Below are positions 47,077-63,349 of a DNA stretch of 64,000 nucleotides, in pieces. This DNA is from Rhizobiales bacterium SYSU XM002. GTDB lineage: Bacteria; Pseudomonadota; Alphaproteobacteria; Rhizobiales; Beijerinckiaceae. Location of the stretch: assembly GCA_009846685.1 (NCBI GenBank), contig VWVY01000001.1, forward strand, positions 1 to 64,000. The letters run 5' to 3'. The notes beneath the pieces were generated by a model. The model saw only the letters and a program-made list of their open reading frames with translations. It ran no database searches and was not told the DNA's origin. Positions within the stretch are counted from its first letter, which is position 1, and every line of letters starts with the position of its first letter. The position numbers and the translations under genes are program-made.

Positions 47077-47162
47077 GTTCGGCGTGATAGGGGGTGCGCT
47101 GTCGCGCACCCTCTCGCTTGCCGCGGCCGCGGATGGGTATCGACAGGAGGGATTTTGAGATC

Positions 47163-47687
47163 ATGAGATCGCTGGCGCGTGTTGTTGATCGCATTCAATC
47201 GGTGTTCGTGGTGGCCGCCGCGATCGTGCTCGGTCTGTTGCCGCTCTTGACCTTCTACGACGTTATCATGCGGTACTTCTTTCACGCGCCAACGATCTGG
47301 GTCAGCGAGATCTCCCTTTACATGCTTCAGTTCCTTGTCTTTTCGACGCTCGGCGCGCTTCTGATGCACGGCGAACATGTCAGGGTCACGTTCTGGATCG
47401 AAGGACTGGGCGGCGCGAGCCGACGGCGGGCTGAGGCGTTCGCATTGGCACTCGTGCTGCCCTTGGCGGGCGTGCTCGTCTGGCAGGGCTATCTCTATGC
47501 CGCCCATGCCTACAGGCGGGAGATGGAATCGCCGACGCTTTTGCAGGTGCCGCTCTGGATTCCCTATTCCTTTATTCCGCTCGGCGGTTTTCTCCTGATC
47601 CTTGGTGTTCTCGCCAAGATCATCGTTGTTCTGGAAGGCGGTCCGCTGCCGCATCACGATCATGCTGATGGGGGGGAGCGGCCATGA
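47163..47687 (+). CDS. TRAP transporter small permease (DctQ type)
   Basis: A 174-residue membrane protein with four hydrophobic segments (VVAAAIVLGLLPLLTFYDVI, ISLYMLQFLVFSTLGALLMH, AEAFALALVLPLAGVLVWQG, IPLGGFLLILGVLAKIIVVL), the topology of DctQ. I start it at ATG 47163, 12 bases after AGGAGG; an in-frame ATG at 47094 overlaps the preceding spacer. It associates with the large permease. Confidence 0.85.
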   Translation: MRSLARVVDRIQSVFVVAAAIVLGLLPLLTFYDVIMRYFFHAPTIWVSEISLYMLQFLVFSTLGALLMHGEHVRVTFWIEGLGGASRRRAEAFALALVLPLAGVLVWQGYLYAAHAYRREMESPTLLQVPLWIPYSFIPLGGFLLILGVLAKIIVVLEGGPLPHHDHADGGERP

Positions 47688-48973
47688 CCGGCGCAACTGT
47701 TTTCGCTATCCTTCCTGCAGTCCTGCTGCTCTGCTTCGTCGCGGGCGTCCCGATCGCGTTCTCGCTCGGGCTGGCGGGTGTCGCCACCATTCTGGCCGCT
47801 GGCGGTGAACGGTTTCTGGTTCAATTGCCGTTGACGCTCAACCGCTCGCTTTCCGATCCGATCATTCTTGCTATCCCGCTCTACATCCTGATGGGCGAAA
47901 TGCTCTATCGGGGAAAGGTCGGTCAGCAGCTGTTCGGTGTGGCGAATGTCTGGCTCCGGGGGGTGCGGGGCGGGACGGGCGTTGCAGCCGTCGCGGCCTT
48001 CACCTTCTTCGCCGCTATCGTCGGCTCGTCCATGGCCTCGGTTCTGACCATCGGCAAAATCGCGATCCCGGAAATGCAAGCGCTCGGATACAGCAAGCGG
48101 CTGAGCTACGGGTTGTCGGCCGTGGGTGGCGCGTTGGGCATTCTCATTCCGCCCAGCATTCCGATGATCATCTATGCCTCGTTGAGCGATGCATCGCCGG
48201 GCAAACTGTTTACCGCCGGCATTATTCCGGGCCTCATGCTGGCTACCATGTTGGCAATATGGGCCATGATCTCGGCTCCGCCGCTCAATTCCAAGGATGA
48301 AAAGCCATGGTCGCTGAGCGAGGCCATCCGAGCGACCGTGGCCTGCCTGCCGGATCTCGCGCTGCCGGGCGTCGTGCTGGGTGGCATCTATCTCGGCATC
48401 TACACGCCAACCGAGGCGGCGGCGGTTGGCGTGGTCTATGCGGCGCTCATTACCATGGTGCTTCGGCGGACTTTGACTGTCTCGGACTTGCCGGACCTTC
48501 TCGTCGCGGCTGCCAAGTCCAGTTCTATGTTGCTCGCCGTCGTGCTGGGAGCATTGATCCTTGGTTCGGCGCTGACCCTTATTGGCCTGCCGCAGATGCT
48601 GGCCTCCTACGTCGTCGCGTCGAAGATCGAGCCTTGGTTGGTCATGCTCATCATGAACGTGATCTGGTTCATCCTCGGCTGTTTTCTGGAGGTGATCTCA
48701 ATTCTCCTGATCACGGTGCCGGTCTTCTATCCTGTTGCCAAGGCGGTTGGGTTCGATCCGATCTGGTTCGGGATCATCCTCGTCATCAACATGGAGCTGG
48801 CCGTTATCACACCGCCCGTTGGCATGAATCTCTTCGCGTTGAAGTCCATCCTGCCGCATGAGCGAATGGAAGAAATCACCCGAGGGGCCTTGCCGTCGGT
48901 TCTGCTTGTTTTGCTGGCACTTGTGCTGGTCTGGGCATTCCCCGGACTGGCCTTGTATCTCGTTGGAGGCTAA
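47684..48973 (+). CDS. TRAP transporter large permease (DctM type)
   Basis: A 429-residue, about 12-helix DctM-family permease: AAVAAFTFFAAIVGSSMASV, GALGILIPPSIPMIIYASLS, YTPTEAAAVGVVYAAL and LGCFLEVISILLITVPVFYP are characteristic. Its ATG overlaps the DctQ stop (ATGA). It is the final gene of the catabolic operon and moves substrate with sodium or protons. Confidence 0.93.
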   Translation: MTGATVFAILPAVLLLCFVAGVPIAFSLGLAGVATILAAGGERFLVQLPLTLNRSLSDPIILAIPLYILMGEMLYRGKVGQQLFGVANVWLRGVRGGTGVAAVAAFTFFAAIVGSSMASVLTIGKIAIPEMQALGYSKRLSYGLSAVGGALGILIPPSIPMIIYASLSDASPGKLFTAGIIPGLMLATMLAIWAMISAPPLNSKDEKPWSLSEAIRATVACLPDLALPGVVLGGIYLGIYTPTEAAAVGVVYAALITMVLRRTLTVSDLPDLLVAAAKSSSMLLAVVLGALILGSALTLIGLPQMLASYVVASKIEPWLVMLIMNVIWFILGCFLEVISILLITVPVFYPVAKAVGFDPIWFGIILVINMELAVITPPVGMNLFALKSILPHERMEEITRGALPSVLLVLLALVLVWAFPGLALYLVGG

Positions 48974-49680: not shown

Positions 49681-50031
49681 CTAGTGACTGATCATCCACG
49701 GGCGCGAGGCGGGAAAGGCCTTGGCGCCATCGGCGCGGTAGAGTGTCTTGCCGTTCTTGCTCTTGCCGGAGCAGCAACTGCAGTTGGCGCCGTGTTTCAG
49801 GCGATATTTCTCGCTTTTCGAGGAGAGTTTCGGAGCGTGCCGGCTTTCCTCGTTGATGGCGAGAGCCTTTTTCGTGTTGCCGTCCATGCCCAGCACCGTC
49901 GGTGGCGTGAAATAGCCGCGTGGGGCTAAGAGGCCGCACGCAGGGCATTCGCAGGGCTCCGCCGCGAGCGCCATCGGTCGAAGCTCGGTGAAGGGCCCGC
50001 AGTCCGGGCATTCGAAGTCGTAATATGGCAT
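49681..50031 (-). CDS. fmdB: FmdB-family zinc-ribbon protein
   Basis: A 116-residue FmdB protein: N-terminal zinc ribbon YYDFECPDCGPFTEL and EPCECPACG (four cysteines), then ANCSCCSGKSKNGK, a Cys-rich C-terminal segment. FmdB is a putative regulator of formamide and urea utilisation in Methylophilus. It lies 68 bases downstream of the formamidase gene in the same direction. Confidence 0.9.
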   Translation of the reverse strand: MPYYDFECPDCGPFTELRPMALAAEPCECPACGLLAPRGYFTPPTVLGMDGNTKKALAINEESRHAPKLSSKSEKYRLKHGANCSCCSGKSKNGKTLYRADGAKAFPASRPWMISH

Positions 50032-50099: not shown

Positions 50100-51329
50100 T
50101 TATTTGTCTGGCGAGATCGGCATCTTCACCGAGCCGTCGAGGAACTTCTTGGGGCCCTCGGCGCCGGGATTGATGTCGAAATCGAAAATCTCGGTCGGAA
50201 TCCAGAGGGTCGCGCAGGCATTGGGAATATCGACCACGCCCGAGATATGCCCCTGAACCGGCGCTGTGCCGAGGATGGAGTAAGCCTGATCCGGCGCATA
50301 ACCGAATTTGGTCAGGTAGTTGATCGCATTGAGGCACGCCTGCTTGTAGGCGACGTTGACGTCGAGATAGTGCTGCTTGCCTTGTTCATCGACCGAGATG
50401 CCCTCGAAGATCAGGTAATCTTTGTAGTTGGGCGTGATGGGCGAGGGCTTGAAGACCGGGTTCTTGATCCCGTACTTCGACATGCCGTCCTTGATGATCT
50501 CGACGCGCAGGTGCAGCCAGCCGGCCATCTCGATCGCACCGCAGAAGGTGATTTCGCCGTCGCCCTGGCTGAAGTGCAGGTCGCCCATCGAAAGGCCAGC
50601 ACCCGGCACATATACAGGAAAATAGATTTTCGAACCGCGCGAGAGGTCCTTGATGTCGCAGTTTCCGCCGTGCTCGCGCGGCGGCACGGTGCGTGCGCCG
50701 GTCAGCGCGGCCTTGTCCTTCTCTGCGCCCTTGAGCTTGCCCATGTGGGCCGTCGAGGGGAAGGGCGGGTTGGCGAGCGGGGGCACACGCGTGGGATTGG
50801 TGGCGATGAAATCCACCTCACGCTTGTTCCATGTCTCCAGCATCTTCTTGTCGGGCAGGCAGCCGATCAGGCCGGGGTGGATCAGCCCGGCGAACTCCAC
50901 GCCCGGCACGTGGCGCGACGAGGTGAACATGCCCTTGAAGTCCCAGATCGACTTCTGCGCCAGCGGGAAATGGTCGGTCAGGAAGCCGCCGCCGTTCTGC
51001 TTGGAGAAGAAGCCGTTGAAGCCCCATTGGCTGTCCGGCTTCGCGCCGATGTCGAGCAGGTCCACCACGAGCAGGTCGCCGGGTTCCGCGCCCTTGACGC
51101 CGACAGGGCCAGAGAGGAAGTGGACGATGGACAGGTCAATGTCGCGCACGTCGTCGGCGGAATCGTTGTTCTTGATGAACCCGCCGGTCCAGTCGTAGGT
51201 CTCGATGATGAAATCATCGCCCGGATTGACCCAGCAGGCCATCGGGATATCCGGGTGCCAGCGGTTGTGCACCATCTCGTTGGTGTAGGCGGATTGGGTC
51301 AGATCGACCTTGATGAGGGTCTCGGCCAT
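50100..51329 (-). CDS. fmdA: Formamidase / acetamidase
   Basis: A 409-residue FmdA: VHNRWHPDIPMACWVNPGDD, VHFLSGPVGVKGAEPGDLLV, WDFKGMFTSSRHVPG, PGRREHGGNCDIKDL-like REHGGNCD, and SMGDLHFSQGDGEITFCGAI are family patterns. It hydrolyses formamide to formate and ammonia, also short aliphatic amides. Immediately downstream of urtE and upstream of fmdB on the same strand, so the transporter may import formamide or short amides besides urea. Confidence 0.96.
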   Translation of the reverse strand: MAETLIKVDLTQSAYTNEMVHNRWHPDIPMACWVNPGDDFIIETYDWTGGFIKNNDSADDVRDIDLSIVHFLSGPVGVKGAEPGDLLVVDLLDIGAKPDSQWGFNGFFSKQNGGGFLTDHFPLAQKSIWDFKGMFTSSRHVPGVEFAGLIHPGLIGCLPDKKMLETWNKREVDFIATNPTRVPPLANPPFPSTAHMGKLKGAEKDKAALTGARTVPPREHGGNCDIKDLSRGSKIYFPVYVPGAGLSMGDLHFSQGDGEITFCGAIEMAGWLHLRVEIIKDGMSKYGIKNPVFKPSPITPNYKDYLIFEGISVDEQGKQHYLDVNVAYKQACLNAINYLTKFGYAPDQAYSILGTAPVQGHISGVVDIPNACATLWIPTEIFDFDINPGAEGPKKFLDGSVKMPISPDK

Positions 51330-51414: not shown

Positions 51415-52104
51415 TCAGACGGAAAGGAACGAGGCCACCTTCGCCTCGTCGATGGTGGCGCGGTTCTCTTCGTGGACGATCTCGCCGTTCTCGATCACGA
51501 GCACGCGGTCGGCGATGTCGAGCGCGAAGCTGAGCACCTGCTCCGAGACGACGATCGAGAGGCCGCGCTCGTCGCGGATGCGCTTCAGGGTGCGCGCCAT
51601 ATCCTTGATGATCGAGGGCTGGATGCCCTCGGTGGGCTCGTCGAGCAGCAGCACCTTGGGTTTGCTGGCCAGCGCGCGGGCAATGGCGAGCTGCTGCTGC
51701 TGGCCGCCGGAGAGGTTGCCGCCGCGCCGGTGCTTCATTTCGAGCAGCACGGGAAAGATCTCGTAGAGTTCACCCGGCACCGCGCTTTCGCCTGTGACGG
51801 TGAGGCCGGTCTTGATGTTCTCCTCTACAGTCATGGTGCCGAAGATCATCCGGCCTTGCGGCACGAAGGCCATGCCTCGCGCCACACGCTCGTGGCTCTT
51901 GAGGTTGGTGATCTCGCCGTCTCCCACGCGCACGGTGCCGCTCTTGGTTGGAACCAGCCCCATCAGCGACTTCATCAGAGTGGTCTTGCCCATGCCGTTG
52001 CGCCCCATGATGGCGACGATCTCGTCGGGCCTGACCTTGAAGTCGAGGCCATGCAGCACCTCGGACTGGCCATAGGCAACATGAAGGTTTTCGACGTTCA
52101 ACAT
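51415..52104 (-). CDS. urtE: Urea/short-amide ABC transporter ATPase UrtE
   Basis: A 229-residue LivF-type ATPase. NVENLHVAYGQSEVLHGLDF, Walker A GRNGMGKTT, signature GGNLSGGQQQQLAIARAL and Walker B VLLLDEPTEGIQPSI are visible; the EGIQPSI following Walker B is typical of UrtE. Ends of urtD and this gene are 21 bases apart. It shares substrate with the other urt genes. Confidence 0.93.
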   Translation of the reverse strand: MLNVENLHVAYGQSEVLHGLDFKVRPDEIVAIMGRNGMGKTTLMKSLMGLVPTKSGTVRVGDGEITNLKSHERVARGMAFVPQGRMIFGTMTVEENIKTGLTVTGESAVPGELYEIFPVLLEMKHRRGGNLSGGQQQQLAIARALASKPKVLLLDEPTEGIQPSIIKDMARTLKRIRDERGLSIVVSEQVLSFALDIADRVLVIENGEIVHEENRATIDEAKVASFLSV

Positions 52105-52125: not shown

Positions 52126-52941
52126 TCAATGGCCGAGATAGACTTCGATGACCTTGGGGTCGCTCTTCACATGGGCAATGGACCCTTCCGAAAGCAGCTT
52201 GCCCTGGTGGAGCACGGTGACGCGGTGGGCGATGTCCTCGACGAATTTCATGTCGTGCTCGATGACCAGCACCGAGCGGCCGACGATGATCTTGTTGAGG
52301 AGTTCCGCAGTCTTCTTGCGCTCCGCGACCGACATGCCGGCCACCGGTTCGTCGAGCATCAGGAGTTCCGGGTCCTGGATCAGCAGCATGCCGATCTCAA
52401 GCCACTGCTTCTGTCCGTGCGAAAGGAACTCTGCGCGGGTTTGCAGCCTGTCGGCGAGGAAGATCATGTGGGCGACCTCCTCGATACGGTCGCGCACCTC
52501 GGCGTCGCGCCGGAAAGTCAGCGCACCGAACACCGAGCGTCCGCGCGGAAACGAGATCTCGAGGTTCTCGAAAACGGTGAGATCCTCGTAGATCGAGGGG
52601 GTCTGGAACTTGCGTCCGACCCCGGCAAGAACGATGCCGTTCTCGCTCATTTTCGTCAGTTCCCGGCCTTTGAACTGGATCGAGCCGGCGGTGGCGCGGG
52701 TGCGTCCGCAGATCAGATCCAGAACCGTGGTCTTGCCGGCGCCGTTCGGACCGATGATCACCCGGATCTCGTTGGGATCGACATAGAAGGAGAGATCGTT
52801 CACCGCCTTGAACCCGTCGAAGGAGACCGTGAGGCCTTCGACCGTGAGAAGAAAATCCGGGGCCATAGCATCGCTGACCCGTCCCGGGCGTTGAGGCGAG
52901 ATCTCGTGCGACGGCTGGGTATTCGTGGGTTGCGCGTTCAT
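52126..52941 (-). CDS. urtD: Urea/short-amide ABC transporter ATPase UrtD
   Basis: A LivG-type ATPase: Walker A GPNGAGKTT, LSHGQKQWLEIGM in place of the standard signature (typical for UrtD), LMLDEPVAGMSVAERKKTAE and IVGRSVLVIEHDMKFVEDIA. I start it at ATG 52941 with AGGAGAG upstream; ATG 52956 overlaps the urtC stop and is also possible. It has an extra ~30-residue N-terminus. Confidence 0.93.
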   Translation of the reverse strand: MNAQPTNTQPSHEISPQRPGRVSDAMAPDFLLTVEGLTVSFDGFKAVNDLSFYVDPNEIRVIIGPNGAGKTTVLDLICGRTRATAGSIQFKGRELTKMSENGIVLAGVGRKFQTPSIYEDLTVFENLEISFPRGRSVFGALTFRRDAEVRDRIEEVAHMIFLADRLQTRAEFLSHGQKQWLEIGMLLIQDPELLMLDEPVAGMSVAERKKTAELLNKIIVGRSVLVIEHDMKFVEDIAHRVTVLHQGKLLSEGSIAHVKSDPKVIEVYLGH

Positions 52942-52952
52942 CGCCGCTCTCC

Positions 52953-54098
52953 TCATTCAGCCGGTGTGGACACGGGCATCGCCGGCGTCGGCGTGCGGCC
53001 CTTACGGGAGAACCACTTCGCGAGACGCGGGGCGATATGGCTGTCGTAGATGCCGGCAAGCCCTGCCGGGAAAGCGAGCACAACGGCAATGAACAGCCCG
53101 CCGAGACCCAGCAGCCACAACTCCGGAAAGCTCTCCGAGAAGGTGGTCTTGGCGAAATTGACCAGCAGCGTGCCGTAGACCGCGCCGAGAATGGAAAGCC
53201 GACCGCCCACCGCGGTGTAGATCACCATTTCGACCGAGGGGACGATGCCCACGAAGCTTGGCGACATGAAACCGACCTGAAGCGTGAACATCGCACCGCC
53301 GATCGCCGAAAGCGCAGCGGCAAAGGCAAAGACGAAGATCTTGAACGAGGCGACGTCATAGCCGGAGAAGCGGACGCGGTCCTCCTTGTCGCGCATGGCG
53401 ACCAGAATGCGCCCGAGCTTGGACTGGCGAACGAGGAAGCACAGTCCGATCACCCCGAAGAGCAGCGCCGCGTTGACGAAATAGAGGATGAACTTGGCGT
53501 GGTCGGTGCGGATGTCCCAGCCGTGCAGGGTGCGCAGGTCGGTGATCCCGTTGATGCCACCGGTATAGCCCTGCTGGCCGATGATGAGGATGGTGAGGAT
53601 TGCGGCGATTGCCTGGGTGATGATGCCGAAATAGACCCCGCCCACGCGCCGACGGAACATCGCGGTGCCAATGATGAAGGCGAAGAGCGTCGGCACCAGG
53701 ATCACGGCCACCAGCGTGAAGGGAAAGCTGGCAAACGGCTTCCAGAACCACGGCAGGGCGGTGAGCTGGTTCCAGTCCATGAAGTCCGGGATGCCGGGGG
53801 TGGACTGGATCTTCGTGTTCTCGACCGACGAGGCCTCCAGCTTCAGGAACATCGCCATGCAGTAGCCGCCGAGCCCGAAGAAGATGCCCTGACCGAGCGA
53901 GAGGATGCCGCCGTAGCCCCAGCACATCACCAATCCGATGGCGACGAACGCGTAGGTGAGATACTTGCCGACGAGGTTGAGGCGGAAAATGTCGAGGGTG
54001 AGTGGCAGCAGCACCACAATCAGCAGGGCGAGGAGAGCGATACCGACGAGCTGAGAGCGGGTCAGGAAGCCGGTACGGGGCGTCGTTTCGGGGTTCAT
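52953..54098 (-). CDS. urtC: Urea/short-amide ABC transporter permease UrtC
   Basis: A 381-residue LivM-type permease with ~9 hydrophobic segments (LLALLIVVLLPLTLDIFRLN; YLTYAFVAIGLVMCWGYGGI; VMCWGYGGILSLGQGIFFGLG). YTGGINGITDL, KLGRILVAMRDKEDRVRFSG and GGRLSILGAVYGTLLVNFAK are UrtC signatures. ATG 54098 is 2 bases after the urtB stop. It forms the membrane channel with UrtB. Confidence 0.93.
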   Translation of the reverse strand: MNPETTPRTGFLTRSQLVGIALLALLIVVLLPLTLDIFRLNLVGKYLTYAFVAIGLVMCWGYGGILSLGQGIFFGLGGYCMAMFLKLEASSVENTKIQSTPGIPDFMDWNQLTALPWFWKPFASFPFTLVAVILVPTLFAFIIGTAMFRRRVGGVYFGIITQAIAAILTILIIGQQGYTGGINGITDLRTLHGWDIRTDHAKFILYFVNAALLFGVIGLCFLVRQSKLGRILVAMRDKEDRVRFSGYDVASFKIFVFAFAAALSAIGGAMFTLQVGFMSPSFVGIVPSVEMVIYTAVGGRLSILGAVYGTLLVNFAKTTFSESFPELWLLGLGGLFIAVVLAFPAGLAGIYDSHIAPRLAKWFSRKGRTPTPAMPVSTPAE

Positions 54099-54100
54099 GA

Positions 54101-55027
54101 TTACCTCCGGACCTTGAGGGTGAAGAGGCCCTGCGGCCGCAGCATCAGGATGCCGACGACACCGAGCAGGGTGATGACCTTGGCGATCGAGCCGGAAAGG
54201 AAGAACTCGAGCGTCGATTGGGTCTGGGAGATGGAAAGGGCGGAGAGGATGGTGCCGATCAGGCTCTGCGCGCCACCGAAGACGACTACGAGGAAGGTAT
54301 CGACGATGTAGAGCTGGCCGGCCGTCGGCCCGGTGGAGCCGATCATGGTGAAGGCCGAACCGGCGACTCCGGCGATGCCGCAGCCGATACCGAAGGTGAG
54401 GCGGTCGACGCGTTCGGTGTTGATGCCAACCGCCGAAGCCATCATGCGGTTGAGCACCACGGCGCGCACCTGCATGCCCCAACGCGAGCGGAACATCATG
54501 ACCGCCACGACGGCGGTGATGATGACGGTGAGAGTCATCACGAACAGGCCGTTGATCTGCACTTCGATGGTATCGGTCAGCTTGAGCGAACCCATCATCC
54601 AGGCCGGCAGTTCAACGCCGACCTCACGTGGACCGAATACCGAGCGGTAGACCTGTTGCAGGATCAGGCTCAGGCCCCAGGTCGCCAGGAGCGTGTCGAG
54701 CGGTCGCTTGTAGAGGTGCCGGATCAGCCCCCACTCGACGATCATTCCGAGCGTGCCGGAGGCAACGAACGCCAGGGCCATCGCGACGAAGAAATACGCG
54801 GGAAACAGCGCCGGCAGGAAATGCTGGAAAGCCTGCGAGGTGAAATAGGTGACATAGGCCCCCAGGATCATGAACTCGCCGTGGGCCATGTTAATGACAC
54901 CCATCTGGCCGAAGATGATCGCCAGACCGAGCGCCATGAGCAGGTAGACCGAAAACAGGATCAGCCCGGCGAAACCCTGCATGACGAAAATCGAGCCCAG
55001 CTCGGAAATCGAATAGCTGTCGAACAT
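54101..55027 (-). CDS. urtB: Urea/short-amide ABC transporter permease UrtB
   Basis: A 308-residue LivH-type permease: LMALGLAIIFGQMGVINMAH, PLDTLLATWGLSLILQQVYR, FGPREVGVELPAWM and GAQSLIGTILSALSISQTQS are UrtB patterns. Unlike many UrtB proteins it lacks the long periplasmic N-terminal region, as in the FmdE-type amide transporter permeases. ATG 55027 is chosen by family match. Confidence 0.93.
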   Translation of the reverse strand: MFDSYSISELGSIFVMQGFAGLILFSVYLLMALGLAIIFGQMGVINMAHGEFMILGAYVTYFTSQAFQHFLPALFPAYFFVAMALAFVASGTLGMIVEWGLIRHLYKRPLDTLLATWGLSLILQQVYRSVFGPREVGVELPAWMMGSLKLTDTIEVQINGLFVMTLTVIITAVVAVMMFRSRWGMQVRAVVLNRMMASAVGINTERVDRLTFGIGCGIAGVAGSAFTMIGSTGPTAGQLYIVDTFLVVVFGGAQSLIGTILSALSISQTQSTLEFFLSGSIAKVITLLGVVGILMLRPQGLFTLKVRR

Positions 55028-55140: not shown

Positions 55141-56400
55141 TTACTGGTAGCCCTTGGGGAAGGGGTCCGGCTCGACGAGGTCGGCGGTTTCGTAGATCAA
55201 CTCGAACTGGCCATCGAGCTTGGCCTTGCCGACACGCGTCTTGGACCAGAGGTGATGGTTCGGGTGGATCTTGACGTAACCTTCCGGCGCGCCCTTGAAC
55301 TCGACGTCCGGGGAGGCCGCAGCCACCTTGTCGATATCGAACGAACCGGCCTTCTCGACGGTCGCTTTCCAGAGCCACGGCCCGAGATAGGCTGCCTGCG
55401 TCACGTCGCCGATGACGGTCTTGTCGCCCCACATCTTCTTGAAGGCGGCGACGAAGGCCTTGTTGTTCGCGTTGTCGAGCGACTGGAAGTACTTCATGCA
55501 GGCGAAGGCGCCCGCGATGTTCTCGCCGCCGATGCCGTCGATCTCGTCCTCGGTCACGGAGATTGTCAGCAGCGTCTGCTTGGAGAGGTCGATGCCGGCG
55601 GCCTTCAGTTGCTTGTAGAAGGCGACGTTCGAGCCGCCGACGATGATCGCGTAGATCACATCGGGCTTGGTAAGCTTGATCTTGTTGATCACCGAGTTGA
55701 ACTGGGTGTGACCAAGCGGGAAATACTCCTCGCCGACGACCTTGCAGCCCTTGAGATATTTCTCAATGTGCTTGCGCGCGATCTTGTTGGAGGTGCGCGG
55801 CCAGATGTAGTCCGAGCCGAGCAGGTAGAAGGTCTTGGCGTTCTTGGTCTTGTTGACCCAGTCGAGACCGGCGATGATCTGCTGCGTGGCTTCCTGCCCG
55901 GTGTAGATCACGTTCTTGGACTGCTCGAGCCCCTCGTAGAAGGTCGGGTAGTAGAGCATGCCGTTGTACTGCTCGAACACCGGCAGCACCGCCTTGCGCG
56001 AGGCCGAGGTCCAGCAGCCGAACACCGAAGCGCACTTGTCGTTCACCAGCAGCTTCTTGGCTTTTTCGGCGAAGGTCGGCCAATCCGAAGCGCCGTCCTC
56101 CTGGATGAATTTGATCTTGCGGCCGAGCACGCCACCCATGGCGTTGATCTGCTCGATGGCGAGTTTCTCGGCCTGCACCGAACCGGTTTCGGAAATGGCC
56201 ATGGTGCCGGTTACAGAGTGGAGGATGCCAACCGTGACTTCCGTATCGGTAACGGCGAGCCCGGTGGTGTTCACGGCAGCGGTTGCCGGCGCGGCAAGAA
56301 CGCTCTTGGGCAGGAGGCCCGCCAGCGGAAGGGCCGCCGCACCCATGAGCAGCCTGCGGCGGGTTTGGTCAACAGGACCGGAAGTCGGGTCTTTCGGCAT
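55141..56400 (-). CDS. urtA: Urea/short-amide ABC transporter binding protein UrtA
   Basis: A 419-residue binding protein with a twin-arginine signal (TRRRLLMGAAALPLAGLLPK). ILHSVTGTMAISETGSVQAE, FIQEDGASDWPTFAEKAKKL, CASVFGCWTSASRKAVLPVF and YLLGSDYIWPRTSNKIARKH are signatures of the UrtA/AmiC/FmdD group. ATG 56400 is the natural start before the signal. Co-occurrence with fmdA suggests that formamide or acetamide is bound as well as urea. Divergent from the permease-kinase fusion. Confidence 0.93.
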   Translation of the reverse strand: MPKDPTSGPVDQTRRRLLMGAAALPLAGLLPKSVLAAPATAAVNTTGLAVTDTEVTVGILHSVTGTMAISETGSVQAEKLAIEQINAMGGVLGRKIKFIQEDGASDWPTFAEKAKKLLVNDKCASVFGCWTSASRKAVLPVFEQYNGMLYYPTFYEGLEQSKNVIYTGQEATQQIIAGLDWVNKTKNAKTFYLLGSDYIWPRTSNKIARKHIEKYLKGCKVVGEEYFPLGHTQFNSVINKIKLTKPDVIYAIIVGGSNVAFYKQLKAAGIDLSKQTLLTISVTEDEIDGIGGENIAGAFACMKYFQSLDNANNKAFVAAFKKMWGDKTVIGDVTQAAYLGPWLWKATVEKAGSFDIDKVAAASPDVEFKGAPEGYVKIHPNHHLWSKTRVGKAKLDGQFELIYETADLVEPDPFPKGYQ

Positions 56401-56508
56401 CGTGCGTCTCCCTGATTGTGCCGGTCTTTCCGGCTGAGGCGATTTCGATGCTCTCGATGGTTTCGATGTTTGTGCGATGCAGCAATACGTCATCCGGGAA
56501 GCGCGATG

Positions 56509-56544
56509 CGTCGTTTGACGGCGCGGCTGATACGTCATTTGACG
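56509..56544. promoter_or_regulatory. Tandem CGTC-N4-GACG dyads
   Basis: CGTCGTTTGACG (56509-56520) and CGTCATTTGACG (56533-56544) are two near-identical dyads with centres 24 bases apart. They lie in the 263-base interval between urtA and the permease-kinase gene, so a dimeric regulator binding both could control both directions; the LuxR-type response regulator encoded at 60004 is the obvious candidate. Confidence 0.6.
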
Positions 56545-56558
56545 ACTTGCCGACCCCA

Positions 56559-56574
56559 AGCGTGTGCGATGCCA
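56559..56574 (-). promoter_or_regulatory. Weak sigma-54 candidate for urtA
   Basis: On the minus strand TGGCATCGCACACGCT keeps GG-N10-GC spacing and a good -24 block, but the -12 block is ACGCT rather than TTGCT. Possible RpoN site, not certain. Confidence 0.4.
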
Positions 56575-56590
56575 TGCTGTCGTCGCGACT

Positions 56591-56606
56591 TGGCATTGAT
56601 CCTGCA
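56591..56606 (+). promoter_or_regulatory. Sigma-54 candidate for the permease-kinase gene
   Basis: TGGCATTGATCCTGCA retains GG-N10-GC with one mismatch in each block (CAT for CAC, CTGCA for TTGCA). It is about 58 bases upstream of the GTG start at 56664. An inverted repeat CATCAGT / ACTGATG at 56608-56631 follows it closely. Confidence 0.5.
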
Positions 56607-56607
56607 T

Positions 56608-56631
56608 CATCAGTTACTTAAGCGACTGATG
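56608..56631. promoter_or_regulatory. Inverted repeat at the permease-kinase start region
   Basis: CATCAGT-N10-ACTGATG, a perfect 7-bp dyad centred on TTAA, just downstream of the -12 block of the candidate sigma-54 promoter. It would overlap the transcription start, a typical repressor position. Confidence 0.45.
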
Positions 56632-56663
56632 CGTAGTCGAGGGTTTCGAGGGGCCTGAACGAC

Positions 56664-59600
56664 GTGGAACCCATCCGTCCCATCGCGGAGGCCCGGCGCA
56701 CCTACAACCAGTGGGTCGCCAACCAGACGCTGGAGGACTACGCCCTGCGGTTCACCGCGAAGGCGGCGCGGCGATGGTCCTCCTTTCGAGTGGCGAACAC
56801 GGCGATCGGCGGTATTTCCTTTCTGGCGCTGGAGGCGGTCGGCGGAGCGATCACGCTGACCTATGGCTTCTCGAACGCTGTAGCTGCCATCGCCGCGGTC
56901 AGCGTGCTGATCTTCCTGCTCGGTCTGCCGGTATCGATCTACGCCGCGCGCTGCGGGGTGGATATCGATCTGCTCACGCGCGGCGCGGGCTTCGGCTATC
57001 TCGGTTCCACCATCACCTCGCTGATCTACGCGACCTTTACCTTCATCTTCTTCGCGATCGAGGCGGCGATCATGGCGAAGGCCCTTAACCTCGCCCTTGG
57101 CATCCCGGAAGCGCTGGGTTTCGTCTTGTCATCGGTGGTGGTCATCCCGCTGGTGACGCACGGCTTCGCGGGAATTTCCCGCTTCCAGATGATCACACAG
57201 CCGTTCTGGGTCGTGCTGCACGTCATCCCTTTCGTCGTGCTGGTGGCGCTGGACGATGGCACGATCGCTGCTTGGACGGGCTATACCGGGCGGCTGGGGC
57301 ATGTCGACGGTCATTTTGACCTCATGCTGTTCGGCGCGGCCTCCGGTGTTTGCTTTGCGCTCGTGGCGCAGATCGGAGAACAGGTCGACTATCTACGCTT
57401 TTTGCCCGAGAAACGGCCGGACCAGCCCGCTCGCTGGTGGCTCGCCCTGATCACCGCCGGGCCGGGCTGGATCGTCCTTGGCGGGCTCAAGATGCTGGCC
57501 GGTTCGTTCCTCGCTTATCTCGCCTTTCGCTCGGGGGTGCCGCCGCAGGACGCCGCCGAGCCAACCCATATGTACATGGTCGCCTTCGCCAAGGTGACCC
57601 AGAATCCGACCTTTGGGCTGGCGCTGGCGGCGATCTTCGTCATCCTCTCGCAACTCAAGATCAACGTGACGAACGCCTATGCTGGGTCGATCGCATGGTC
57701 GAATTTTTTTTCGCGTCTCACCCATTCACATCCCGGCCGTGTGGTCTGGGTTGTGTTTAACGTGATGATCGCCCTGCTGCTGATGGAGCTGGGCATCTAT
57801 CGCAGCTTGGAGAAGATTCTCGGGCTCTACGCCCATGTCGCGGTGGCGTGGCTCGGCGCAATCGTCGCCGATCTCGTCATTTCGAAGCCACTCGGCCTTT
57901 CCCCGCCTGGCATCGAGTTCAAGCGCGCGCATCTTTACGATATCAACCCGGCCGGGCTTGGGGCCATGGTCGGTGCGAGCTTGCTGGCCATCGCCGCGCA
58001 TCTGGGCAGCTTCGGCGCATATGCTCAGGCGCTCTCCTCCTATCTCGCGTTGGCGGCGGCGCTCGTGCTTGCGCCACTCATCGCCTTTCTCACACGCGGC
58101 CGCTACTACCTCGCGCGACAGCCCGATCCCTCGTTGAAGCTGGTCGCGCAATGCACATGTTCGGTCTGCGTCAACACCTTCGAAGCCGAGGACATCGCGC
58201 AATGCCCGGCCTATGGTGGCCCGATCTGTTCGCTCTGCTGCACGCTTGACGCGCGTTGCCACGACAAGTGCAAGGTGAAGAGCCGTGTGGACGAGCAGTT
58301 CACCGAGGTGGGGGGGCGCCGGCCACCTTGGTTTTCTCTGCTTTCGCCGTCCCTGGCGCGCTATTTCGCGCTTCTGCTGATCGTCACCTCGGTCATGGCG
58401 ACCGTGATGGTGCTGGTCTACTGGCAAAGCCTCGACGATCCCGGTATCAATGCCCAGGCGCTGGGTCTGGTGCTCGCCAAGGCATTCCTCGGGCTCTTCC
58501 TCATTACCGGCATCGTGAGCTGGCTTCTGGTGCTGGCGCACGAGAGTCGCGAGATGGCGCTGGCGGAAACCGAACGTCAGACCGGATTGCTGATGTCCGA
58601 AATCGCCGCGCATGAGGAAACGGACCGTGCATTGCAGGCTGCCAAGGAGGTCGCCGAGGCAGCCAACTTTGCCAAATCGCGTTATCTCGTGGGGATATCT
58701 CATGAATTCCGCACACCGCTCAACGCGATCCTCGGTTACGCGCAACTGACGGAGGCGGACGAACTGCCGCCCGAGCGCAAGCAGGCCGCCATCCGCACCA
58801 TCCGCCGTTCAGGCGAGCATCTTGCCGGGCTGGTTGACGGACTGCTCGACATCGCCCGCATCGAGGCGGGACGGTTCCAGCTTCAGCGCGACACCGTCGC
58901 CTTTCCAGAGTTCATTGAGGAACTGGCGGACATGTTCCGCCTGCAGGCACAGATGAAGGGCATCGCCTTTCGTTTCACACCGCCGGCGCATCCGCCTGCC
59001 TTCGTGCGCGCGGACGAGAAGCGGCTACGCCAGGTGCTGATCAACCTTCTTTCCAACGCCATCAAGTACACCGAAAAGGGAGAAGTCTGCCTGACGATTT
59101 CCTTGCGCAACGACGTGGCAAGGATCGCGGTCGAGGACACCGGCTGCGGTATCGCGCCCGAGAATCTGGAACGCATCTTCGTGCCGTTCGAACGCATCGA
59201 GAATCCCGACATGCCGTGGGTGCCCGGCACCGGGCTCGGCCTGACCCTGACGAAGCTGATGAGCGAGATGATGGGCGGCGCGATCACCGTTGAAAGCACG
59301 CCGGGGAAGGGGAGCTGTTTCAGGCTGCGTCTGCATCTGCCGAGCGTGCAGCCGGAGGCCGCTTCCGCCGTACCGGAGGAGCGTATCACCGGCTATGCGG
59401 GGCCCCGCCTCAAGGTTCTGGTGATCGACGATGAAGCCAGCCATCGCGAGCTGATACGGGATGTTCTTTCTCCGCTCGGCTTCGTTGTCACCGACGTAAG
59501 CGGCGGGCAGGAGGGACTGACCGTCTTTCCCGTGCTTGTGCCGGATATCGTGCTTCTCGATGTGACAATGCCGGGCCTCTCGGGGTGGGAGGTTGCGCGG

Positions 59601-60029
59601 CTGCTGCGTGAGGCGCACGCCTTTTCCGGCACCATCCTGATGATGTCGGCCATTGGCGGCCCTCGGCAGGACATGGCTCCGCATGAGGCGGATCACGATG
59701 GGTTTGTCGCCAAGCCAGTGCGCATCGAACGTCTTCTTGAGACGATCGGTGAGGCAGCGGGGATCAATTGGCTTCGCGGCGCGGGCGCGGCACGGGATGT
59801 AAGTGGTTCGACGCTGCCCGTGTTGCCGGCGCCGGTGGTGAGCGAGTTGCGCCGGATGGCGGAACTGGGGCTGGCCCACCCGCTGCTACGACGGCTGGAG
59901 GCGCTCCGGATCGAGTTCCCCGGACAAACCGGCGCGATCGACGACCTGATCCTCCGCGCCTCCGTCCTCGATTTTGAAGCTGTTCTCAGGTTGAGCGAGT
60001 CCGATGCCGATGAATGCCACCCCGCGTAG
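56664..60029 (+). CDS. NCS1-permease / hybrid histidine kinase / receiver fusion
   Basis: A 1121-residue protein. Residues ~10-485 form a complete NCS1 nucleobase/hydantoin-type permease of about 12 helices (ANTAIGGISFLALEAVGGAI, THGFAGISRFQMITQPFWVV, INVTNAYAGSIAWSNFFSRL). A Cys-rich segment follows at ~496-536 with ten cysteines (CTCSVCVNTF, CPAYGGPICSLCC, CHDKC), then two more helices (~565-635), a HisKA domain with His ~680 in GISHEFRTPL, a HATPase_c domain (N-box LLSNAIKYTEKGE, G-box DTGCGIAP / GTGLGLTL), a receiver (Asp ~966 in LLDVTMPG), and a ~75-residue tail. GTG start. It most likely senses or transports a nucleobase, ureide or urea-like solute and controls urt/fmd through the next gene, whose ATG lies inside it (overlap 26 bases). 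Confidence 0.9.
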   Translation: MEPIRPIAEARRTYNQWVANQTLEDYALRFTAKAARRWSSFRVANTAIGGISFLALEAVGGAITLTYGFSNAVAAIAAVSVLIFLLGLPVSIYAARCGVDIDLLTRGAGFGYLGSTITSLIYATFTFIFFAIEAAIMAKALNLALGIPEALGFVLSSVVVIPLVTHGFAGISRFQMITQPFWVVLHVIPFVVLVALDDGTIAAWTGYTGRLGHVDGHFDLMLFGAASGVCFALVAQIGEQVDYLRFLPEKRPDQPARWWLALITAGPGWIVLGGLKMLAGSFLAYLAFRSGVPPQDAAEPTHMYMVAFAKVTQNPTFGLALAAIFVILSQLKINVTNAYAGSIAWSNFFSRLTHSHPGRVVWVVFNVMIALLLMELGIYRSLEKILGLYAHVAVAWLGAIVADLVISKPLGLSPPGIEFKRAHLYDINPAGLGAMVGASLLAIAAHLGSFGAYAQALSSYLALAAALVLAPLIAFLTRGRYYLARQPDPSLKLVAQCTCSVCVNTFEAEDIAQCPAYGGPICSLCCTLDARCHDKCKVKSRVDEQFTEVGGRRPPWFSLLSPSLARYFALLLIVTSVMATVMVLVYWQSLDDPGINAQALGLVLAKAFLGLFLITGIVSWLLVLAHESREMALAETERQTGLLMSEIAAHEETDRALQAAKEVAEAANFAKSRYLVGISHEFRTPLNAILGYAQLTEADELPPERKQAAIRTIRRSGEHLAGLVDGLLDIARIEAGRFQLQRDTVAFPEFIEELADMFRLQAQMKGIAFRFTPPAHPPAFVRADEKRLRQVLINLLSNAIKYTEKGEVCLTISLRNDVARIAVEDTGCGIAPENLERIFVPFERIENPDMPWVPGTGLGLTLTKLMSEMMGGAITVESTPGKGSCFRLRLHLPSVQPEAASAVPEERITGYAGPRLKVLVIDDEASHRELIRDVLSPLGFVVTDVSGGQEGLTVFPVLVPDIVLLDVTMPGLSGWEVARLLREAHAFSGTILMMSAIGGPRQDMAPHEADHDGFVAKPVRIERLLETIGEAAGINWLRGAGAARDVSGSTLPVLPAPVVSELRRMAELGLAHPLLRRLEALRIEFPGQTGAIDDLILRASVLDFEAVLRLSESDADECHPA

Positions 60030-60918
60030 CGCCATCCTCGTCGCGGACGATTCCGCGGAGACCCTGTCAATGCTCTCCGATGTGCTGGAAGGCGCGGGTT
60101 TCACCGCGTTCGTGGCGCTGCGGGGTGACCGCGCGCTTTCGATTGCCAAGCAGGTGACCCCCGATCTCGTTCTGCTTGATGCGATGATGCCGGGTATGGA
60201 CGGATTCGAGACCTGCCGTGCCTTGAAACGCGACGCGGCACTTTCCCGCGTGCCAGTGATTTTCATGACCGGACTCGCGGAGCCGGAGGATGTCGTACGC
60301 GGGCTGGAAGCCGGCGGCGTGGACTACGTCACCAAACCGGTGGTGCCGCAGGAACTTCTTGCCCGCATTAGGGTCCACCTTGCCAATGCTCGGCTGGAGC
60401 GCTCTGCCCGCGCCGCTCTCGATTCCTCGGGTCGCTACCTGCTGGCGGCGGACGAAACCGGCAACCTGCTGTGGTGGACGCCGCAGGCCGGCGCACTGAT
60501 GGTCGGCGTTCTCGATGAGCCGCTTTCGGAGCGTGCTCCGCTGCCGGAAGCGCTGGCGACGGCGCTTGCCGACACGCCTGATCCCGCACGGCTCAGCATT
60601 GCATTGCCGCGTGCCGGTGGTGTCGGTGTGAAGGTACAGGGCGTTGCGCGCCTCGCGCCGGGCGAAATCCTGCTCCGCGTGAGCGAGGCCGATACGGCCC
60701 CCGGCGTGGAAGAACGCCTGCGAGAAACGTATCAGGTTTCGGCGCGCGAGGTCGAGGTGCTGAGCTGGATCGCGCAGGGTAAGACCAACCGTGACATCGC
60801 TGAAATCCTTGATGTCTCGCCACGCACGGTCAACAAGCACCTTGAACGCATCTTCCGCAAGATCGGCGTGGAGAACCGCACAGCCGCTGCTGCGGTCGTA
60901 TTGGGCATGAGGCGTTAA
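60004..60918 (+). CDS. LuxR-type response regulator paired with the permease-kinase
   Basis: A 304-residue regulator. The receiver (about 1-125) has acidic pair ADDS, phosphorylatable Asp59 in LLDAMMPGMDGFE and the Lys in DYVTKPVV. A non-standard middle region (~130-225) leads to a C-terminal LuxR HTH (~235-300: VSAREVEVLSWIAQGKTNRD, VSPRTVNKHLERIFRKIGV). Overlaps the kinase gene by 26 bases. It probably binds the dyads in the divergent urtA/kinase region. Confidence 0.92.
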   Translation: MPMNATPRSAILVADDSAETLSMLSDVLEGAGFTAFVALRGDRALSIAKQVTPDLVLLDAMMPGMDGFETCRALKRDAALSRVPVIFMTGLAEPEDVVRGLEAGGVDYVTKPVVPQELLARIRVHLANARLERSARAALDSSGRYLLAADETGNLLWWTPQAGALMVGVLDEPLSERAPLPEALATALADTPDPARLSIALPRAGGVGVKVQGVARLAPGEILLRVSEADTAPGVEERLRETYQVSAREVEVLSWIAQGKTNRDIAEILDVSPRTVNKHLERIFRKIGVENRTAAAAVVLGMRR

Positions 60919-61021: not shown

Positions 61022-63349
61022 CTAGGCGTGCAGCGCTATTCCGATGTCAGTGTGCCGTTCAGGCGGCTTGGTCGCGAACCTGTCCGGCGGAGTTGAATGG
61101 ACCCGATTTGTTTCGCGACGCGCGATCCGATTGGGCTTGCCATAGAGATAGCCCTGCTGAAGGCGACATCCCGCAGCGTACATGCATTGAGCTTGCTCGG
61201 TGGTCTCGATGCCTTCCACTACCAGTTCGATATCAAGTTCGACGGAAAGAGCGACCATCGCTCGCACGATTGCTGCATTGGCGCGCGACAGCGGCACGCC
61301 GACGAAGCATCGGTCGATCTTGATCTTGTCGAACGGAAAGCGCTGGAGGTAGCTCAGGGATGAATAGCCCGTTCCGAAGTCATCGAGCGAAACCCGGACG
61401 CCAAGGCTCTTGAGATCACGCAGGACGTCGAGCACGGCCTTGTCGTCCGAAATGAGAACGTTTTCGGTGATCTCAAGCTCCAGCAGGCGCGGGTTGAGGC
61501 CGCTGGCGGCAAGTGCCCCGATCACGAAGGACTTGAACTGGGGTGCCTTGAGCTGAACCGACGAGATGTTGACGGCAATCGCCTGGCTCGGGAAATGGGT
61601 CATCGCATCGACGCATGCCGTGCGCAAAGCCCAGTTTCCCAAGGCATGAATGAGCCCCGATTCCTCGGCAACGGGAATAAACTCCGCCGGACTGACCGGG
61701 CCCAGTTCCGCACTCTCCCAGCGCATGAGCGCTTCATTCATCAGAATGCGACCGTCCGCGCCATCGACGATGGGCTGGTAGGCGAGATAAATTTCGTCAC
61801 CCAGCAGCGCGTTGCGCAACCCGCTCTCGAGCAACTGTTTTCTGCGTGCATTCGCCCGCATGCTCTCGTCGAAAACCGCAGCCTGCCCCTTGCCGCGCGC
61901 CTTTGCCGCATAGAGCGCCATGTCCGCCATTTTCAGCAGGTCATCAGGATCGCCTCTGCCTGACGTTGAGGTGACAATACCGATGCTGACACCGATGAGG
62001 ACGCTCTGGTTCTGCGTGACATAGGAACGGCTGATGGCGTCGATGAGCGTCTGTGCGAAGGCGTCCACATTCTGCACTGCATCCAAAGGCACCAGTATGG
62101 CGAATTCGTCGCCGCCCAGACGAGCCAGAATGCCTCTGTCCGAGAGGACCGATTGCATGCGACGTGTCACCGAACGCAGGATCAGGTCTCCGGCCGCGTG
62201 GCCGAGCGTGTCATTGACGAGCTTGAACCCGTCCAGATCGAGGCAAAGAACGGCGAAGGGCCGGGAGGATGCGTGCGCGCGTTTGAGGAAAGTTGAGATT
62301 TCCTCCATCAGGGTGCGCCGGTTGAGCAAGCCGGTCAGCGGGTCTTTTCTGGAGAGTTCGACCGTGCGCCTTTCAGCCCGGACACGCTCGGTCGCGTCGG
62401 TGATCATTCCCTCGTAATAGATGATCTTGTCGTCATCATCCCGGACCAACCAGGCCGTTTCCGAAATCCAGATCTTGTCATGCCGGGGGTCGAACTGCAC
62501 CTCGGAGAGAAAATCGTCCACCCGTCCGACCGTTGTCAGGGTGTTGAGAAAATCGACACGACGAGACGGGTCGACATACCAATCGGAGGCCTTGAGGCCG
62601 GATTCACGCAGCAGGTCGTTTTCGTTCTCGAAGCCGTGCAGCTTCGCAAAGGCCGGGTTCGCCTTGATAAGCGTGCCATCGAGGCCGGCACGATAGATGC
62701 CGAGGACGGCATTCTCGAATAGGGTGCGGAACTCGCGTTCGGCGGCGATGAGAGCCTTTTCCCGCTCGCAGGCTTCGGTGATGTCGACATATGTCCGGAC
62801 ACAGGCGCCGTCCGGAAGCTGTACCGTCCGGACTTCGATCTGCGCGCCGTCCGGGCGCGACCGGGTATAAAGCGCCGGCTGTTCGTGGATTTCCATTCTC
62901 AGCCACGCCTCGACCTGCTCTCTGGAGGCCGTCGAGAATTCGCCTGCGGCGTAAAGCCGCCCGATAAGGTCTCGGAACTTCAAGGAGCCGTCGAGATCGG
63001 CGGAACCAAGTCCGAGAAGGTCTCGCGCCATGCGGTTGGCGGTCTCGATGAAACCTTCCCGGCTGACGAGAAGGATGCCCTGGCTGATGCTGTCGAGTGC
63101 GTTGTCGAAGCGATGGCGAAGCGAGAGCGCCTCTTTCGTGCGTTCTTCGATTTTCCGCTCAAGACCGTCCGTCAGCTCCTCGACCTCTTCGGCCATGATG
63201 GCGAGCGCGCGTTGGGAGCGCAGGCGGTTCTGGTTCAGTTCATGATAGGTATCGCTGACCAAGGTGAGCAGATGGTCCGCATCCAGCGTGTCATCCGGAT
63301 TCCGGCATTGCTCGACCTGGCGAAGAAGCAGGGCGGCTCTCTCGTTCAT
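61022..63349 (-). CDS. PAS-GGDEF-EAL cyclic-di-GMP protein
   Basis: A 775-residue cytoplasmic protein: N-terminal coiled coil (~30-80), PAS domains (~85-200 and ~205-325), a GGDEF domain with intact RLGGDEF (~430) and an EAL domain (~510-750) with NEALMRW, the DDFGTGYSSLSYLQ loop and IVVEGIET-like VVEGIETTEQA metal/substrate motifs. Both domains look catalytically competent, so synthesis and breakdown of c-di-GMP are both possible. Its ATG overlaps the FIST-gene stop. Confidence 0.92.
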   Translation of the reverse strand: MNERAALLLRQVEQCRNPDDTLDADHLLTLVSDTYHELNQNRLRSQRALAIMAEEVEELTDGLERKIEERTKEALSLRHRFDNALDSISQGILLVSREGFIETANRMARDLLGLGSADLDGSLKFRDLIGRLYAAGEFSTASREQVEAWLRMEIHEQPALYTRSRPDGAQIEVRTVQLPDGACVRTYVDITEACEREKALIAAEREFRTLFENAVLGIYRAGLDGTLIKANPAFAKLHGFENENDLLRESGLKASDWYVDPSRRVDFLNTLTTVGRVDDFLSEVQFDPRHDKIWISETAWLVRDDDDKIIYYEGMITDATERVRAERRTVELSRKDPLTGLLNRRTLMEEISTFLKRAHASSRPFAVLCLDLDGFKLVNDTLGHAAGDLILRSVTRRMQSVLSDRGILARLGGDEFAILVPLDAVQNVDAFAQTLIDAISRSYVTQNQSVLIGVSIGIVTSTSGRGDPDDLLKMADMALYAAKARGKGQAAVFDESMRANARRKQLLESGLRNALLGDEIYLAYQPIVDGADGRILMNEALMRWESAELGPVSPAEFIPVAEESGLIHALGNWALRTACVDAMTHFPSQAIAVNISSVQLKAPQFKSFVIGALAASGLNPRLLELEITENVLISDDKAVLDVLRDLKSLGVRVSLDDFGTGYSSLSYLQRFPFDKIKIDRCFVGVPLSRANAAIVRAMVALSVELDIELVVEGIETTEQAQCMYAAGCRLQQGYLYGKPNRIARRETNRVHSTPPDRFATKPPERHTDIGIALHA

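Follow-up and report, generated by a model that had tools for sequence, protein, structure and literature searches.

Transporter-kinases as such are already known. To go by the sections of the papers that deal with them, they include CbrA, CrbS and RpuS, whose transporter part is of the SLC5 type (PMC13022988, PMC9100948), and Ks-Amt5, whose transporter part is of the Amt type (PMC5764959). Here we analyse a stretch of 64,000 nucleotides (the window) of contig VWVY01000001.1 from Rhizobiales bacterium SYSU XM002, in which a single gene encodes an NCS1-like transporter domain fused to a hybrid histidine kinase, followed by a gene for a LuxR-type response regulator (Table 1). We propose that the fusion is probably a small-amide transceptor, with formamide as its most likely ligand here, that drives the divergent urtABCDE-fmdAB genes; the proposal builds on features read from sequence, namely the fusion, the fold class, the gene association, a shared palindrome and a set of invariant residues. 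For an NCS1 version of a transporter-kinase, searches of the open-licence PMC literature gave no description of a family.

The sensor shares with the SLC5/STAC kinases, as the relevant parts of PMC13022988 and PMC9100948 present them, the joining of a transporter domain to a kinase, a role in the control of small nutrients, and the 'transceptor' concept. In S. fredii those kinases are likewise hybrids, and RpuS has a LuxR-type regulator as its partner. Unlike them, the sensor is NCS1-like, its putative targets are amide and urea genes, and a cysteine module and two helices stand at the position of STAC and PAS. The ammonium sensor kinase Ks-Amt5 also uses a transporter fold as receptor on a histidine kinase for a nitrogen compound, but belongs to another transporter family, and its regulator was then unidentified according to the corresponding sections of PMC5764959; here a regulator and a candidate operator can be named. 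The fmdCABDEF system of Methylophilus methylotrophus combines short-chain amide/urea uptake with a formamidase and, in the part of PMC10781810 that treats its control, is induced by formamide and urea and repressed by ammonia; the terms 'two-component' and 'histidine kinase' occur 0 times in that paper. A hybrid kinase and a LuxR-type regulator beside a second urtABCDE set are reported from a Pseudomonas-type locus (PMC13296017), while co-location of urt, fmdA and amiE, and growth of P. veronii Yu15 on formamide, are reported in PMC13209695. In their passages on these loci, neither paper describes the transporter-like domain, the family or the operator. GrtK, an ammonia sensor kinase (PMC12918730, in the portion compared), is of a different kind.

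The first-pass annotation of the window had described a transporter and kinase in one frame, and the single open reading frame (ORF) of 1121 aa bears this out. Its HisKA, HATPase_c and REC domains score well over the Pfam cut-offs and, with the catalytic residues, make it a hybrid histidine kinase. In the family alignment, His680, already singled out as the phosphoacceptor, and N798 are kept in 148/148 rows that reach the kinase, and D966 is kept in 145. The downstream gene, which overlaps the kinase gene with either of its possible starts (60004 or 60010), has the REC and GerE domains of a LuxR/NarL-type response regulator, also as anticipated. In AlphaFold models about 12 transporter helices are followed by a small beta-rich Cys domain and by helices 562-589 and 597-697, in line with the twelve plus two helices expected. 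An HPt-type phosphorelay via the C-terminal tail of the sensor is unsupported, the tail having no conserved His in the alignment.

That the fusion arose by chance or through misassembly and has no functional link to urt-fmd has virtually no probability. In a phylum-wide sample of 398 genomes, own genome included, frames of 894-1365 aa hold all 56 strong matches (at least 756 bits), and the fusion is conserved in named plasmids and genomes. The same fusion is found in 147 further proteins of our compiled set, near-copies included. The search for fused relatives and their neighbours, suggested as a check on a sequencing artefact, thus excludes one: the assembly-artefact reading is refuted by family conservation. 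The same search overturned the view of the fusion as unusual. It is genuine and usual in a large family of proteobacterial proteins, not rare.

At E<=0.001, and with the own genome counted each time, matches were obtained in 18 of 100 genomes of near relatives, 27 of 385 alphaproteobacterial genomes and 55 of the 398 genomes of the phylum sample, tallies that take in a few weak matches, fragments and other NCS1 proteins. Outside the window there are 55 strong phylum matches, with the kinase recognised by typing in 54 and by Pfam in the remaining one (L268). A kinase-free homologue used as query matched 16/350 gammaproteobacterial genomes, with 17 of the 19 places in frames of 1007-1272 aa, and the N-terminal domain matched 531 plasmid records, 342 of them from Klebsiella. 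On the one Klebsiella record opened for the sensor, an IncFIB plasmid, urt and amiF occur together with the sensor and regulator genes (L020:7885-18240).

The N-terminal domain has no transporter-family match in Pfam or NCBIfam and no credible sequence match in the PDB. PF02133 was not among the E<=1 matches of any of 16 family members, nor did it give any match at E<=0.001 in the own genome. Given these blank sequence searches, we turned to profile-profile and structure comparison for the NCS1 assignment. With hhalign, a profile of 47 relatives matched seven PF02133-type permeases over 380 columns (98.6% probability, E 1.4e-15), as against 0.7% probability (E 0.079) for ten SLC5 proteins. A fairly confident AlphaFold model of residues 1-640 (pLDDT 82.6, pTM 0.84) gave Mhp1 (2jln) or CodB (7qoa) as all five best PDB matches in Foldseek (TMt 0.68-0.79). 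SLC5 kinship is rejected on the hhalign result and on a Pfam scan without a PF00474 match, and by profile the sensor is indeed distinct from the CbrA kind.

Mhp1 and CodB share with the sensor the fold and a related helix-8 pattern, but sequence identity is 17-18%, the Cys module is added, PF02133 does not match, and Lys-Ile replaces Ser/Thr-Thr on helix 8. Within the family, E239-Q240-x-D242-x-x-R245 on helix 6 and K332, N334 and N337 on helix 8 are invariant. The helix-8 pair is Lys-Ile in 50/50 sensor rows and 8/8 kinase-free rows of one alignment; in a larger one, K332 stands in 152/152 rows and I333 in 151. Nine typical NCS1 rows have Ser/Thr-Thr (5), G-T (2), T-M (1) or K-A (1) there, and because the last of these (L136) also has Lys, the trait is not unique to the family. 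S312/T313 on helix 8 of Mhp1 help hold Na+, and in ApcT a lysine probably substitutes for Na+. The sensor lacks the helix-8 hydroxyls of the Na+ site in NCS1 transporters, and K332 in place of the usual hydroxyl hints at a sodium-related change. With PF02133 unmatched and these hydroxyls replaced, the domain is a divergent NCS1-like branch, an atypical member: the assignment to the NCS1 nucleobase type stood as regards the fold, but not as regards membership of the typical family.

Behind the fold lies the cysteine cluster, for which ten cysteines had been counted; the cluster is there, but has nine (497, 499, 502, 514, 522, 525, 526, 532 and 536), eight of them conserved. Those eight (all but 497) are kept together in 150/152 rows. 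The two exceptions, kinase-free homologues from A. baumannii and K. pneumoniae, jointly lack 514, 526, 532 and 536 and retain the CxxC...CxxC pair, as expected for two four-Cys sites, which is the simplest reading of the pattern. Such conservation would also suit a module that senses zinc, iron or redox state as the main switch, with the NCS1 domain as anchor or secondary input. We consider this very unlikely, as it is amide and urea genes that are conserved nearby (no search for metal genes was made), and the kinase-free permeases of L213 and L325 have all eight cysteines. The module is therefore part of the permease unit, not a connector specific to the kinase as had been supposed. Most of it is lost in the kinase-free rows of Arthrobacter and Tsukamurella. 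In a full-length AlphaFold model (pLDDT 80.4; domain placement unreliable given a pTM of 0.58), residues 597-697 form one unbroken helix from the last membrane pass to beyond His680, and this helix is the likely signal route to the kinase.

The unit of NCS1 fold and Cys module carries different outputs. Most members have a kinase and receiver, four have a kinase without receiver (L023, L266, L268 and L327), and one gammaproteobacterial protein has PAS-GGDEF-EAL instead (L329:7052-10720), its N-terminal part being 48% identical to that of the sensor, with all eight cysteines and K332. The same input on differing outputs is the strongest sequence argument for a receptor role, and these three kinds of arrangement tell against a functional transporter in the NCS1 domain with signal perception elsewhere, be it inside the cell, by way of the kinase or Cys module, or through flux. 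The amide link would in that case stem from transport and not from a ligand sensed by the NCS1 fold. CbrA offers a precedent, since its SLC5 domain is non-essential for signal perception and its kinase unneeded for uptake (PMC9100948, in the sections on domain function), and kinase-free homologues beside urease or amidase genes resemble real transporters. A separate urt transporter at 44/53 informative phylum loci argues the other way, and on balance we regard sensing elsewhere as unlikely, although the NCS1 domain may still transport.

Three frames depart from the usual layout. L030:10001-14290 holds the kinase and a LuxR-type regulator in a single open frame of 1430 aa, which could be a natural fusion or a one-base error in a metagenome assembly. 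The frame of L047 is broken after 689 aa and that of L074 has a stop within the stretch matched by tblastn, both in metagenome assemblies. The PAS-GGDEF-EAL fusion gene of L329 lies near a gene for the RuBisCO large subunit.

The family's neighbours point to small amides. Loci were typed within ~9 kb with urea/amide reference proteins only. The 80 closest loci, the best of at least 586, are a biased selection, so that the phylum sample gives the fairer picture. Its 55 loci include two cut by contig ends (L222 and L270). Urea/amide genes are present at 53/53 of the informative loci, a hydrolase at 49, compared with 0/40 control windows from genomes of the same sample. FmdA was found at 36, the closer urt type at 34, an AmiE-type amidase at 20, urease at 13, a more distant urt type at 10 and AmiS at 2; at 37/53, urtA on the opposite strand is the closest upstream gene that was typed. 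Among the 80 closest loci, 76 of 78 informative ones (L074 and L109 are cut off) have urea/amide genes and 58 a hydrolase. With such neighbours usual across the family, its members very probably sense urea, formamide or related small amides. Three kinds of hydrolase occur with them, namely FmdA, nitrilase-type AmiE (AmiF in the Klebsiella plasmid) and urease, which points to a shared type of substrate and not to a single enzyme.

These neighbours also bear on a sensor for nucleobases, hydantoins or ureides, the typical substrates of NCS1 proteins. Mhp1 and CodB are the closest solved structures, and homologues are annotated as 'allantoin permease' or 'cytosine permease'. Set against this are the urea/amide genes at every informative phylum locus, with the stated limit of the references, and the absence of nucleobase or ureide genes by eye in 17 annotated regions, for which no dedicated search was made. 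Such a ligand is in our view highly improbable. From the list of urea, formamide, a ureide or a nucleobase given in the first-pass annotation, urea and short-chain amides fit, and the transceptor role that it suggested is supported as a likely one.

In a tree of 110 rows (quick method), the urease label needs at least 5 changes on well-supported branches, and four genomes hold both a urease-linked copy and a urt-fmdA-linked copy: G674 (L250 and L255), G693 (L254 and L246), G812 (L256 and L249) and G612 (L264 and L247). It thus seems that the sensor has moved between operons for urea and operons for formamide, which fits a receptor for urea-shaped amides with easily shifted selectivity. Residues that separate urease-linked from formamidase-linked copies can be listed, but these labels follow the tree.

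Ten kinase-free homologues, picked from the matches and not at random, were inspected, and 8/10 adjoin urea/amide genes (urease, formamidase or amidase). They follow ureG in K. pneumoniae and L326, precede urease genes in A. johnsonii, and stand next to fmdA in Moraxella, Tsukamurella and L325, or next to an amidase in Arthrobacter and in Methylovirgula, the latter with a sensor and fmdAB also near. No urea/amide genes lie beside the Streptomyces plasmid copy or the A. baumannii copy (L208), the latter being divergent from the sensor gene. In L325 the place opposite the divergent sensor, usually that of urt, is taken by the kinase-free homologue followed by fmdA-fmdB-amidase, and a 1-mismatch operator (see below) lies between homologue and sensor. 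The three kinase-free rows of the 110-row tree form one group (support 99). The K. pneumoniae gene (L209:9956-11563), directly after ureG and annotated 'cytosine permease', is possibly a urea permease. On the Moraxella plasmid (L210:8075-21566), ~10 kb separates fmdB-fmdA-permease from hutI-hutG, annotated with formamide as a product.

The intergenic interval 56401-56663, put forward as the regulator's target region, holds a predicted site of a family-wide palindrome. Motif discovery and counting used a single set of 125 non-redundant upstream regions of 350 bp each. The most frequent dyads merge to TACGTCA-N2-TGACGTA, with the best dyad in 34 regions against a maximum of 3 in ten simple base shuffles. 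At <=2 mismatches the merged motif occurs in 50/125 regions and 1/2000 control pieces. Across 3.18 Mb of loci (near-copies included), 89/91 such sites are no more than 600 bp upstream of a typed gene, almost always urtA, the sensor gene or fmdA and once urtC; control windows have 1 in 0.79 Mb. Of the six loci fetched last, three show the palindrome again (1, 0 and 0 mismatches) and three do not. It is the likely operator of the response regulator. Formamidase-linked copies have it at <=3 mismatches in 51/84 cases. The site at 56531-56546 is the sole one at <=2 mismatches in the window, and the weaker neighbour listed in Table 1 is one of seven 4-mismatch sites there, six of them elsewhere. In the nearest relative (L030), two palindromes of the TGCGTCG type lie at a distance of 25 bp. 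A search of the own genome gave no convincing extra regulon. A sigma-54-like -24/-12 element stands ahead of the kinase gene; such elements occur on the kinase strand in 15/125 regions and 7/2000 control pieces, enriched but in few copies, and may tie the sensor to nitrogen limitation. A scan of 56380-56680 found no sigma-70 promoter.

Several observations weigh against the proposal. Four of the 53 phylum loci (L229, L231, L234 and L241) rest on the more distant urt type only, and the fused sensors of L027, L079 and L092 have no typed urea/amide gene nearby. The A. baumannii sensor (L208) has only its kinase-free homologue beside it and no typed urea/amide gene. Six gammaproteobacterial stretches, of the 19 places listed, were fetched last; five carry fused loci, two of which (L327 and L329) are without a typed urea/amide gene. 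K332 is shared with kinase-free homologues and hence is no sign of lost transport. The operator is weak or absent at many urease-linked copies (8/34 at <=3 mismatches), and the window's own site is imperfect, with 2 mismatches. At that threshold of <=2 mismatches, 4 places occur in the own genome against 3 for a reversed-pattern control, and the best of the 4 lies elsewhere (C15:23279, equal to L320:4280; 1 mismatch), 74 bp ahead of a frame of 714 aa that has no Pfam match. The amide-gene link is strong but not universal, and is weakest in divergent gammaproteobacterial copies.

In the window, urtA-E, fmdA and fmdB lie on the strand opposite the sensor, beginning 263 bp away, so the divergent arrangement noted earlier holds. 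The TIGR03407 match of UrtA by itself leaves urea and formamide undecided, and a longer urtA ORF with a start at 56610 would engulf the predicted operator. The window fmdA is the sole PF03069 match in the genome. A urease cluster (~318-331 kb, within C1:318000-336000, L323) on the same contig lacks this sensor and comes with a separate urt set, whose subunits are 39-51% identical to those of the window. This makes import of short-chain amides the best reading of the window urt, and formamide or another short-chain amide, formamide most likely, is the better guess for the ligand of the window sensor. Formamide uptake has likewise been guessed for urt in a Pseudomonas, in the passage of PMC13209695 on that locus. 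Elsewhere in the window, a gene for a PAS-GGDEF-EAL protein (61022-63349, minus strand) is convergent with, and directly downstream of, the regulator gene, and genes of a TRAP-type transporter (DctP and DctM, separated by a small membrane gene) occupy 46024-48973 (plus strand).

Table 1. Features of the sensor locus and its divergent neighbours, in window coordinates
Feature	Coordinates	Strand	Basis or remark
NCS1-like transporter / hybrid histidine kinase fusion	56664..60029	+	single ORF, GTG 56664 to TAG 60029, 1121 aa
NCS1-fold domain, residues 1-485	56664..58118	+	profile, AlphaFold, Foldseek, alignment
Cys module, residues 497-537	58152..58274	+	conserved Cys 499, 502, 514, 522, 525, 526, 532, 536
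Two further predicted transmembrane helices, 562-589 and first part of 597-697	58347..58538	+	model
HisKA, residues 671-736	58674..58871	+	Pfam; phosphoacceptor His680 at 58701-58703
HATPase_c, residues 784-893	59013..59342	+	Pfam
Receiver domain (REC), residues 918-1028	59415..59747	+	Pfam; Asp966 at 59559-59561
C-terminal helical tail of the sensor, without HPt signature	59811..60002	+	alignment, model
Response regulator, REC and GerE (LuxR type)	60010..60918	+	Pfam; alternative ATG at 60004
Predicted operator TACGTCATTTGACGAC	56531..56546	.	2 mismatches to TACGTCA-N2-TGACGTA
Weaker second operator-like site	56507..56522	.	4 mismatches
Lone half-site TACGTCA	56486..56492	+	
Sigma-54-like -24/-12 element TGGCATTGATCCTGCA upstream of the kinase gene	56591..56606	+	
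urtA, substrate-binding protein	55141..56400	-	TIGR03407, 546 bits, cut-off 493
urtB, permease	54101..55027	-	
urtC, permease	52953..54098	-	
urtD, ATPase	52126..52956	-	similarity to annotated UrtD in relatives
urtE, ATPase	51415..52104	-	similarity to annotated UrtE in relatives
fmdA, formamidase	50100..51329	-	NF045496 equivalog, 767 bits, cut-off 500
fmdB, FmdB-family zinc ribbon protein	49681..50031	-	

Taken as a transceptor, the fusion would work as follows. The divergent NCS1-fold domain would bind a urea-shaped amide, in this strain most likely formamide, and the resulting change would be relayed via the last membrane helix, which in the model is continuous with the kinase helix bearing His680. 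The kinase would then phosphorylate the overlapping LuxR-type regulator, which is predicted to bind TACGTCA-N2-TGACGTA sites in the 263-bp divergent promoter. By turning on urtABCDE-fmdAB and its own operon, the regulator would provide for amide uptake and hydrolysis when an amide is present.

Transporter-kinases of only a few kinds are known, and whether the transporter part acts as the sensor is disputed for those with SLC5. A family that offers a receptor and a kinase-free homologue, sometimes adjacent, with a small set of ligands, a regulator and a predicted DNA site would make sensing and transport separable. More widely, and with confidence just short of even, NCS1-like proteins could hold a whole class of urea/formamide receptors. 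These would have a Na+-independent, possibly non-transporting core and a zinc-type module, would serve as a plug-in sensor for kinases and c-di-GMP enzymes, and would be kin to amide permeases still found next to urease and amidase genes; with a dedicated palindrome, they would provide inducer sensing for formamide and urea operons. The family offers a function for proteins annotated just as 'ATP-binding protein', 'cytosine permease' or 'allantoin permease', and may explain how urea and formamide are detected by many bacteria, whether from soil, plant-associated or clinical.

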